NCBI RefSeq assembly: GCF_000813825.1
Contig: NZ_JWTA01000015.1
Span: 248,001-312,000, forward strand
Direction: 5' to 3'
Length of the DNA stretch: 64,000 bases
From: Chryseobacterium taiwanense
GTDB lineage: Bacteria; Bacteroidota; Bacteroidia; Flavobacteriales; Weeksellaceae
In this document: piece after piece, positions 48,429 to 50,377 of the stretch
Numbering within the stretch: position 1 is the first letter of the stretch
Layout: each line of letters opens with the position of its first letter
The notes under the pieces: model-generated
Database searches by the model: none
What the model was told of the DNA's origin: nothing
The model's input: only the letters and a program-made list of their open reading frames with translations
Program-made: the position numbers and the translations under genes

Positions 48429-49052
48429 ATGGTTATTAAAACAGCAAACTTTGTAAAAAGTAGTGGAAAATGGCAAGATTGCCCGGAACCTACAATTCCC
48501 GAATATGCATTTATCGGAAGATCGAATGTTGGGAAATCTTCGTTGATTAATGCAATGATGAATCACAAAGATTTGGCTAAAACATCACAGACTCCGGGGA
48601 AAACACAGCTTATTAATCATTTCTTAGTCAATGAAAGTTGGTATTTAACCGATTTACCGGGGTATGGATATGCAAAGGTTTCAAAGTCAATCAGAAAAGA
48701 TTTTGAAAAGCTGATCACCAATTATATTTTAAACAGAAGAAACTTAGTGAATCTTTTTGTGTTGGTAGACTCCAGACATAAACCTCAGGCTATTGACTTG
48801 GAATTCATTCAATGGTGTGGGGAAAGTGGAGTACCGTTTTCAATCGTATTTACAAAAGTTGATAAGCTGAAACCAAATATTGCGATTAAAAATGTAGAGG
48901 ATTATAAAGCGGAACTTCATAAAACCTGGGAAGATCTTCCGGAGTTGTACGTGACTTCTGCGGAAAAGAAAACCGGAGGTGATGAAATTTTAAGTTTCAT
49001 TCAAAAAACCAATGAATTTTTGGCTAATAATAATGTAAGCTTCGATGAGTAA
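48429..49052 (+). CDS. engB: Ribosome biogenesis GTP-binding protein EngB (YihA/YsxC)
   Basis: The 207-residue TRAFAC GTPase has G1 GRSNVGKSS (30-38), G3 LTDLPGYGYA, G4 FTKVDKL and G5 TSAEKKTG. The GYGYAKVSK segment is specific to this family. It acts in late assembly of the 50S subunit. The next gene overlaps its end by eight bases. Confidence 0.96.
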   Translation: MVIKTANFVKSSGKWQDCPEPTIPEYAFIGRSNVGKSSLINAMMNHKDLAKTSQTPGKTQLINHFLVNESWYLTDLPGYGYAKVSKSIRKDFEKLITNYILNRRNLVNLFVLVDSRHKPQAIDLEFIQWCGESGVPFSIVFTKVDKLKPNIAIKNVEDYKAELHKTWEDLPELYVTSAEKKTGGDEILSFIQKTNEFLANNNVSFDE

Positions 49053-49494
49053 TATTATCTGGAAAATTAAAACTTTTGATGAGTTTACCGTTCCCGAGTT
49101 GTATGCCGTTTTAAAAGCAAGAATCAATGTTTTTGTCATTGAACAGAATTGTCCTTATCCTGATTTGGATGATTATGACCAAAAAGCAGTTCATATTTGG
49201 GCGGAAGAAGATGGAGAAGTACTTGCCAATTGCCGAATTTTCGATAAAGGGATAAAATACGACGAAACCTCAATCGGAAGAGTGTTGACGACTGAAAAAG
49301 CAAGAGGTAAAAACTTAGGAAGACAGTTGATAAAATATGCATTAGAAACGATTGAAAACCGTTTTCATACTTCTGAGATCAGAATTTCTGCACAGGATTA
49401 TCTATTGAAATTCTATTCTGAGTTCGGATTTGTAGATACTGGGAAAAAATATTTAGAAGACGATATTCCGCATACGGAAATGTTGAGAAAATAA
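49045..49494 (+). CDS. ElaA-like GNAT family N-acetyltransferase
   Basis: The 149-residue protein opens WKIKTFDEFTVPELYAVLKA and continues with RINVFVIEQNCPYPDLDDYD, which is typical of the ElaA subfamily. The acetyl-CoA loop is TTEKARGKNLGRQLIKYAL, followed by the conserved IRISAQDYLLKFYSEFGF. Substrate is unknown. It overlaps engB by eight bases and is probably co-translated with it; the palindromic terminator follows its stop by six bases. Confidence 0.92.
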   Translation: MSNIIWKIKTFDEFTVPELYAVLKARINVFVIEQNCPYPDLDDYDQKAVHIWAEEDGEVLANCRIFDKGIKYDETSIGRVLTTEKARGKNLGRQLIKYALETIENRFHTSEIRISAQDYLLKFYSEFGFVDTGKKYLEDDIPHTEMLRK

Positions 49495-49495
49495 A

Positions 49496-49529
49496 GAAAA
49501 GCGAGTAAATTAATTTACTCGCTTTTTTT
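49496..49529. terminator. Bidirectional terminator (22-bp perfect palindrome)
   Basis: GCGAGTAAATTAATTTACTC plus GC (49501-49522) is a perfect palindrome with T-tracts on both sides (TTTTTTTG rightward, TTTTCTTTATTTT leftward). It ends elaA and, on the other strand, would end the short transcript from the promoter at 49616. Confidence 0.9.
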
Positions 49530-49612
49530 GACAGTTTTATATGGAATGTGTTTTTATGGTTATTAGTTTAATTACATTCAGAACAATAAGATCTGTCAAC
49601 ATATTGTTTGCA
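49498..49612 (-). ncRNA. Candidate short transcript downstream of the response regulator (RNA or microprotein)
   Basis: Between a good leftward -7 element (49616-49623) and a perfect palindromic terminator (49501-49522) lies about 110 bases with no known gene. Upstream of the -7 element sits a copy of the TTACGG-N4-CCGTAA operator. The unit thus has operator, promoter and terminator. It could be a small RNA, or carry the 21-codon frame at 49537-49602. No family is recognised. Confidence 0.45.
49537..49602 (-). CDS. Possible 21-aa hydrophobic microprotein
   Basis: ATG at 49602 opens MLTDLIVLNVIKLITIKTHS and one further Ile, then a stop. It is short and hydrophobic, and its start falls 13 bases after the -7 element. 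It is offered only as an alternative coding reading of the short transcript. Confidence 0.2.
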   Translation of the reverse strand: MLTDLIVLNVIKLITIKTHSI

Positions 49613-49615
49613 GTT

Positions 49616-49623
49616 CAAAAATA
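49616..49623 (-). promoter_or_regulatory. -7 promoter element of the short transcript
   Basis: Read leftward the bases are TATTTTTG, a full match to TAnnTTTG, preceded by CATC. The operator at 49645-49660 ends 21 bases upstream, in the -33 position. Confidence 0.55.
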
Positions 49624-49644
49624 GATGGATAAAATTTAGTAACC

Positions 49645-49667: not shown

Positions 49668-49698
49668 AAAAACCTTTCAAAAAAATTGAAAGGTTTTT
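49668..49698 (-). terminator. Intrinsic terminator after the response regulator
   Basis: AAAAACCTTTCAA pairs with TTGAAAGGTTTTT; read leftward it is followed by TTTGTTTTTT. It separates the regulator operon from the short transcript unit. Confidence 0.88.
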
Positions 49699-49711: not shown

Positions 49712-50377
49712 TTAAATAATTCCAATGTCCTTACAGAATGCGACCAATTGTTCGTTGCTCGTCACTTCAAGACCTTCTTTGAGACTATTTAATTTTTTCT
49801 CAACACTGCTTAAGCTATTAGGTTTGATTCCTTTTTCCTGGAGATGTATCGGAATGTATTTTTGCAATATTCCTTTGGATAATAATGAGACAAGAGTAAT
49901 ATCATAAGCGGTAAACTCATAGCTGTTAAGTTTTTTTACCTCATTTTTTAAATCAAATGATAAATAATCTTCATTAATAAAAACAGAAGCGATGGATTTT
50001 TTTAATTCTTTTGAATCGTTTCTGGCTTTACGAACATAACCATTGATTTGATAATCTTTGAAAAGAGTATCTATAATTCCGGACTTCTGTTCCCCGGAAA
50101 ATACAATAACTTTTAGGGAAGGATGAACTTCCTTTACTTTTTGAATCAAATCTTCTCCGCCTTTGATACGTTGTGTATAATGATCTTCTTCGAAAGAAAG
50201 ATCTGTGATCAACAGGTCATAAGGATCGTTCTCACGGATAGCTTTTTTTACTTTTGCCAAAGCATCATCACAATAATATACATAATCAACTTTTGGAATA
50301 TTAAGATCTTCTAATGTTTTTTGGACAGAGTAGCTACTCATTTCGTGGTCCTCGGCAATTAAAATTTTTTTAAACAT
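49712..50377 (-). CDS. Response regulator with degenerate LuxR-like C-terminus
   Basis: The 221-residue protein has a receiver domain (1-125) with E9/D10, phospho-acceptor Asp59 (LLITDLSFEED) and the switch Ser in VIVFSGEQ. The C-terminal 75 residues (ELTAYDITLVSLLSKG-like opening, LSSVEKKLNSLKE) keep the helix pattern of a LuxR helix-turn-helix but lack its usual core residues. It would act on DNA when phosphorylated by the kinase 11 bases upstream. The repeated operators nearby are its most likely targets. Confidence 0.88.
   Translation of the reverse strand: MFKKILIAEDHEMSSYSVQKTLEDLNIPKVDYVYYCDDALAKVKKAIRENDPYDLLITDLSFEEDHYTQRIKGGEDLIQKVKEVHPSLKVIVFSGEQKSGIIDTLFKDYQINGYVRKARNDSKELKKSIASVFINEDYLSFDLKNEVKKLNSYEFTAYDITLVSLLSKGILQKYIPIHLQEKGIKPNSLSSVEKKLNSLKEGLEVTSNEQLVAFCKDIGII

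Follow-up and report, generated by a model that had tools for sequence, protein, structure and literature searches.

A putative small RNA unit, left by cargo loss, behind an RcsB/NarL-type response regulator gene in Chryseobacterium taiwanense

Small RNAs whose promoters are controlled by response regulators are known from several systems, among them RNAIII of agr, RsmY and RsmZ under GacA, and Qrr under LuxO. The unit described here lies in a 64,000-nucleotide stretch of the Chryseobacterium taiwanense genome (hereafter the window), and it resembles these systems in having a short predicted RNA with its own terminator and a promoter that seems to be under the positive control of a linked response regulator; with agr it also has in common an adjoining pair of variable peptide and kinase. 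No sequence similarity to RNAIII, RsmY/RsmZ or Qrr is claimed and, unlike in those systems, one promoter is followed either by a unit of this kind or by a cargo operon; the window unit is also, as far as seen, not a GGA decoy of the RsmA type. To our knowledge, no Hfq is generally known in the Bacteroidota. A further likeness is to small RNAs derived from 3′-UTRs, since the body of the unit matches the 3′ end of an operon together with its terminator, but here the operon is gone and its tail is fused straight to the operon promoter. The regulator recalls the RcsB/NarL family in its receiver and its divergent C-terminal region, which align with full-length RcsB, and in an inverted-repeat operator near −42; it departs from that family in the operator sequence, TTACGG-N4-CCGTAA, and in matching no curated HTH model, and it is a predicted DNA binder.

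Promoters of the sigma-A type (TAnnTTTG) and small RNAs have been mapped in Flavobacterium psychrophilum and Bacteroides thetaiotaomicron (PMC9723704, PMC7366714). The window unit has the same −7 box and is likewise short and intergenic, but it lacks an Rfam match and its locus is not described there. In Rfam no family reached the gathering threshold and the best scores were far below it, and in the literature, supplements aside, no description was found of this two-component system, operator, cargo or locus, the Riemerella PhoP/PhoR paper being concerned with an OmpR-type system. In Bacteroidota other than Bacteroides, only a handful of regulatory RNAs are understood, and how two-component systems control them has received little study. 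At this locus the sequences of dozens of species reveal the regulator, the operator, the promoter geometry and the predicted RNA output, natural alleles with and without cargo allow comparison, and the case would illustrate how a small RNA arises through deletion of an operon that leaves promoter, tail and terminator behind.

Promoter and terminator of the unit

The original prediction was a minus-strand unit of about 110 nt bounded by promoter signals and a terminator, and these signals are real (Table 1). The −7 element was found on the minus strand where it had been placed, and it fits the sigma-A consensus TAnnTTTG of the Bacteroidota (PMC9723704). The operator is a perfect palindrome; it had been assigned to −33, but its centre lies near −42 relative to the predicted start, which is the position of a class II activator, and no −33 TTTG element was visible at this promoter. 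Among 80 loci of relatives, which were fetched via the regulator protein, 74 have the operator behind the regulator gene; across these it is invariant, and its distance to TAnnTTTG is exactly 21 nt in each. At least one such composite (operator, 21 nt, TAnnTTTG) occurs in 156 of 173 congeneric genomes, against none for the reversed control pattern, and the window unit is the sole exact composite of its 4.1-Mb genome. Several genomes without a strong match to the regulator, or without an operator behind it, have no composite whatever (for instance G029, G031, G059, G066 and G087); the exception is G039 (87% complete), which has two composites without a strong regulator match. The promoter is a conserved device with the regulator site at a fixed position, and from this linkage we infer that the regulator binds the operator.

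Besides the second perfect operator within the window, further operator palindromes are found elsewhere in the same genome (L002 at G000:C13:27779, L003 at G000:C43:210616, L001, L004, L008 and L009), several of which precede genes, for example those of a 399-aa SIR2-like protein and of a lipoprotein. Together they possibly form a small regulon with looser −7 boxes.

At its other end the unit meets a converging GNAT gene (49045–49494), and since the terminator begins 2 nt past the stop codon of that gene, both units use one terminator. A perfect 22-bp palindrome had been predicted; the terminator itself stands, but the palindrome extends over 30 nt, with GCGAGTAAATTAATTTACTCGC as its 22-nt core. 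In C. gwangjuense the arms have changed, with the pairing largely kept and at least one change compensatory. The whole predicted transcript folds better than its shuffles (z = −5.6), an effect due chiefly to the terminator, and the arms of the predicted closing stem are invariant and therefore give no covariation evidence for it.

Table 1. Features of the locus, in window coordinates
Feature	Position	Strand	Remarks
Bidirectional terminator	49497–49526	both	perfect 30-nt palindrome with 15-bp arms; common to the converging GNAT gene
Conserved transcript body (predicted small RNA minus terminator)	49526–49611	−	near-identity to C. gwangjuense
Predicted 7-bp closing stem	UUGACAG 49593–49599; 3′ arm CUGUCAA 49528–49534	−	predicted fold
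21-codon ORF MLTDLIVLNVIKLITIKTHSI of the original prediction	49537–49602	−	chance frame of the fossil; unsupported as a gene
Core ACTAATAACCATAAAAACACA	49547–49567	−	common to cargo-free units of genus g3 and 3′ tails of cargo arrays
Fossil of a lost cargo gene (its final 15 codons with the stop), NCKQYVDRSYCSECN	49568–49615	−	relatives end in GGCYYYSGNSKQYVDRSYCSGCN and stop
Predicted transcription start	49609–49612	−	inferred; 4–7 nt past TTTG
−7 element TATTTTTG	49616–49623	−	fits TAnnTTTG
Operator palindrome TTACGGAAACCCGTAA	49645–49660	−	centred ~42 nt 5′ of the predicted start
Terminator of the response regulator gene	49668–49698	−	
RcsB/NarL-type response regulator, presumed activator	49712–50377	−	profile match to full-length RcsB
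TPR-lipoprotein histidine kinase	50389–52026	−	kinase half of NarX/NarQ type
64-aa variable peptide, probably exported	52092–52286	−	candidate kinase ligand
Second perfect operator	52612–52627	+	TTTG at equal spacing; 5′ of divergent ORF 52679–53554

The cargo operon and its remnant

In most Chryseobacterium the space between the regulator and GNAT genes is taken up by a variable cargo operon, which the same promoter drives and which comprises up to 17 ORFs over ~11 kb (L182–L221), encoding DUF1508 proteins, an HSDR_N-type nuclease-like protein, SH3, bPH/SHOCT and TM2-like proteins, an AAA ATPase and lipoproteins. This cargo is missing in the window and in C. gwangjuense. A gene ending in GGCYYYSGNSKQYVDRSYCSGCN is often present in the cargo and, when it is the last one, the first 48 nt of the window unit can be aligned to its end; in the window this frame, NCKQYVDRSYCSECN, lacks a start codon. 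The statement that no known gene explains the unit was thus only partly right: relatives still have an intact copy of the protein gene whose 3′ end survives as a fossil in the first 48 nt, and the remainder corresponds to the 3′ tail of the lost cargo operon. As judged by these alignments the window unit is a deletion remnant, made up of the promoter, 15 codons, the operon tail and the terminator.

The sequence of the unit is homologous to the operon 3′ end, as in small RNAs that derive from 3′-UTRs, and a related motif, AAACACTC..CATATA, precedes the terminator at 20 of the 32 cargo-bearing loci, versus 1.5% of shuffles. The small RNA is perhaps derived from the operon 3′ tail, which may already have had an RNA function, so that loss of the cargo would have exposed a stand-alone small RNA.

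Some arrays (L182, L186, L189, L204) have a second, internal operator-promoter. An interpretation of the arrays as attC/integron cassettes was dropped: the element at the cargo end consists of the 3′ end of one gene and the operon tail, and no repeat following each gene was apparent in the cargo arrays read. The cargo was also considered as anti-phage islands, which would be a tentative reading at most, the only similarities being to AAA (IetA-like) and HSDR_N proteins and falling below or outside the system definitions.

Conservation of the transcript body and its explanation

Conservation outside the terminator had been named as a check on the unit, and the comparison did not go against the unit. 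Between the window and C. gwangjuense, 86 of 87 positions are identical at 49520–49606, and the body as a whole has 1 difference per 91 sites, whereas the fourfold sites of the flanking genes differ at 91 of 254 (36%; histidine kinase excluded); with 20 of 37 fourfold sites as the reference the contrast gives P = 2e-12 (Fisher). The promoter spacer differs at 5 of 21 positions and, like the flanking genes, diverges normally. In a second kind of cargo-free unit, type b, which is carried by at least six Chryseobacterium species (including C. sediminis, C. panacisoli and C. aquifrigidense), most pairs show 0–1 differences over about 63–64 positions against ~45–46% at fourfold sites (P~1e-10), and a pair from Pedobacter (L087, L088) differs at 1 of 82 positions versus 22 of 48 fourfold sites (P = 1e-10). 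In g3, a second Weeksellaceae genus, a 24-nt core, CAGATTAATAACCGTAAAAACACAA, shows 0–1 differences per 24 positions versus 47–66% at fourfold sites; it is also recognisable in the window as ACTAATAACCATAAAAACACA, and it resembles an ordinary translation-start context, CTAATAACCATGAAAACT, of which the genome has several copies. Over the lineages, P in the Fisher test ranges from 1e-5 to 2e-12. The bodies are very different from lineage to lineage and show no covariation within them, and the type a body of the window was found in two species only. The Pedobacter body, of ~85 nt, is unrelated; it has a 7-bp stem, AGTTCAA/TTGAACT, and lies behind the same operator downstream of the regulator gene.

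A 21-residue hydrophobic peptide had been offered as one product of the unit, and a small mRNA for it would account for an open frame that begins near the predicted 5′ end and that differs from C. gwangjuense at 1 of its 21 codons. The ORF exists, but it is not in the ancestral frame, the sequence at its place is ATG-TAG in most relatives, and the leader and the downstream tail are conserved to an equal degree. Neither a conserved frame nor an excess of synonymous changes was found: the two species having the ORF show no synonymous change, despite 36% at fourfold sites. Frame-breaking indels in type b leave no common frame of any kind, and ATG is missing from the Pedobacter body; what is constrained is therefore not a peptide, and the peptide gene was rejected; a small mRNA is the most improbable of the explanations weighed here. 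Nearly as improbable is an operator decoy or a simple autoregulatory sink for the regulator with an inactive RNA, which would suit the sole exact composite of the genome, adjoining the regulator gene as it does, but leaves the conservation downstream of the −7 box unexplained.

The near-identity might instead belong to an inert deletion scar, a fusion of promoter and terminator around a functionless body that owes its low divergence to recent transfer or short-tract gene conversion. Fossil codons and varied cargo arrays do indicate gene gain and loss at this locus, but the low divergence starts near the predicted transcription start and stops at the terminator arms, edges with which gene conversion is hard to invoke; moreover, divergence is not locally lowered in the flanking genes, and a like pattern occurs in four separate lineages with unlike bodies. 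Such a scar is unlikely, and a body constrained far beyond neutral in all four lineages argues that the unit is not one. Constraint on the DNA itself, as a second regulatory site or as a recombination or insertion site at the cargo boundary, would fit the position of the element exactly at the start and end of the cargo and the recurrence of the core in array tails and in genus g3. On the other hand, 60–90 nt are conserved without symmetry, the cargo lists read contain no recombinase gene, and the conserved edges coincide with those of the predicted transcript, all of which makes a DNA-level element a rather improbable explanation.

A small RNA, the other product proposed at the outset, is the favoured reading, since in four lineages the body has been conserved far more strongly than neutral change would allow. 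As in small RNAs controlled by response regulators, the unit has a regulator site at a fixed position, an intrinsic terminator of its own, and a body under selection without coding constraint. It is probably best read as an untranslated small RNA of ~110 nt, activated by the response regulator and kept by selection, with transcription itself deduced from these signals. According to the mechanism proposed here, the regulator would activate, via the operator near −42, a sigma-A promoter without a −33 element, which in most relatives would drive the variable cargo operon ending at the shared bidirectional terminator. In an ancestor of the window species and C. gwangjuense, the cargo would have been deleted, leaving only its final 15 codons with the 3′ tail and terminator behind them, and the promoter would now yield the RNA of ~110 nt, selected and working untranslated, possibly as a descendant of the 3′-tail RNA of the operon. 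The RNA would most likely act in trans and would have a mainly single-stranded AU-rich body (CUAAUAACCAUAAAAACACA), with a possible closing stem (UUGACAG/CUGUCAA) and the terminator hairpin. When base-pairing targets were sought among the 54 genes of the 64-kb window, duplex energies were no better than for shuffled sequences, and matches to the reverse complement of the core in its own genome were at control level and mostly in ordinary ATG contexts.

The adjoining peptide and kinase

The gene of the 64-aa peptide lies directly 5′ of the kinase gene, and its product has a hydrophobic start, a variable body and the end G(N/D/E)(T/S)GQ-PP. Over 48 loci, mean identity is 41% for the TPR half of the kinase, 66% for its kinase half and 77% for the response regulator. 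The divergence of the TPR half is nearly decoupled from that of the regulator (r = 0.25 against 0.84), and the peptide correlates with the TPR half when the regulator is controlled for (partial r = 0.43; 0 of 1000 permutations). This pattern is what would be expected of a ligand-receptor pair with exchangeable types, for which peptide and kinase are candidates. Tentatively, and with more doubt than attaches to the small RNA, the locus might represent a pherotype-type peptide quorum-sensing system of the Bacteroidota, with a variable exported peptide, a periplasmic TPR kinase whose hypervariable sensor matches it, and an RcsB-like regulator, the output being an exchangeable cargo operon or, where the cargo is lost, a conserved small-RNA effector. 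If peptide and kinase are indeed ligand and receptor, the unit would be the RNA output of a peptide-signalling system, and peptide signalling in the phylum would be open to direct test; the locus would then be functionally comparable to agr with RNAIII, though unrelated in sequence.

In one cargo array (L185, 2270–2754), two genes at the array end resemble the kinase-adjacent peptide (MIQ..., GGNTGQ-PP), and the peptide family is therefore found among the operon outputs as well. The non-coding stretch 5′ of the peptide gene (52290–52420) is 92–95% identical to C. gwangjuense, above the neighbouring coding DNA, and holds hairpins such as CTCGGAATATTGATTCCGAG; it is possibly a leader RNA.
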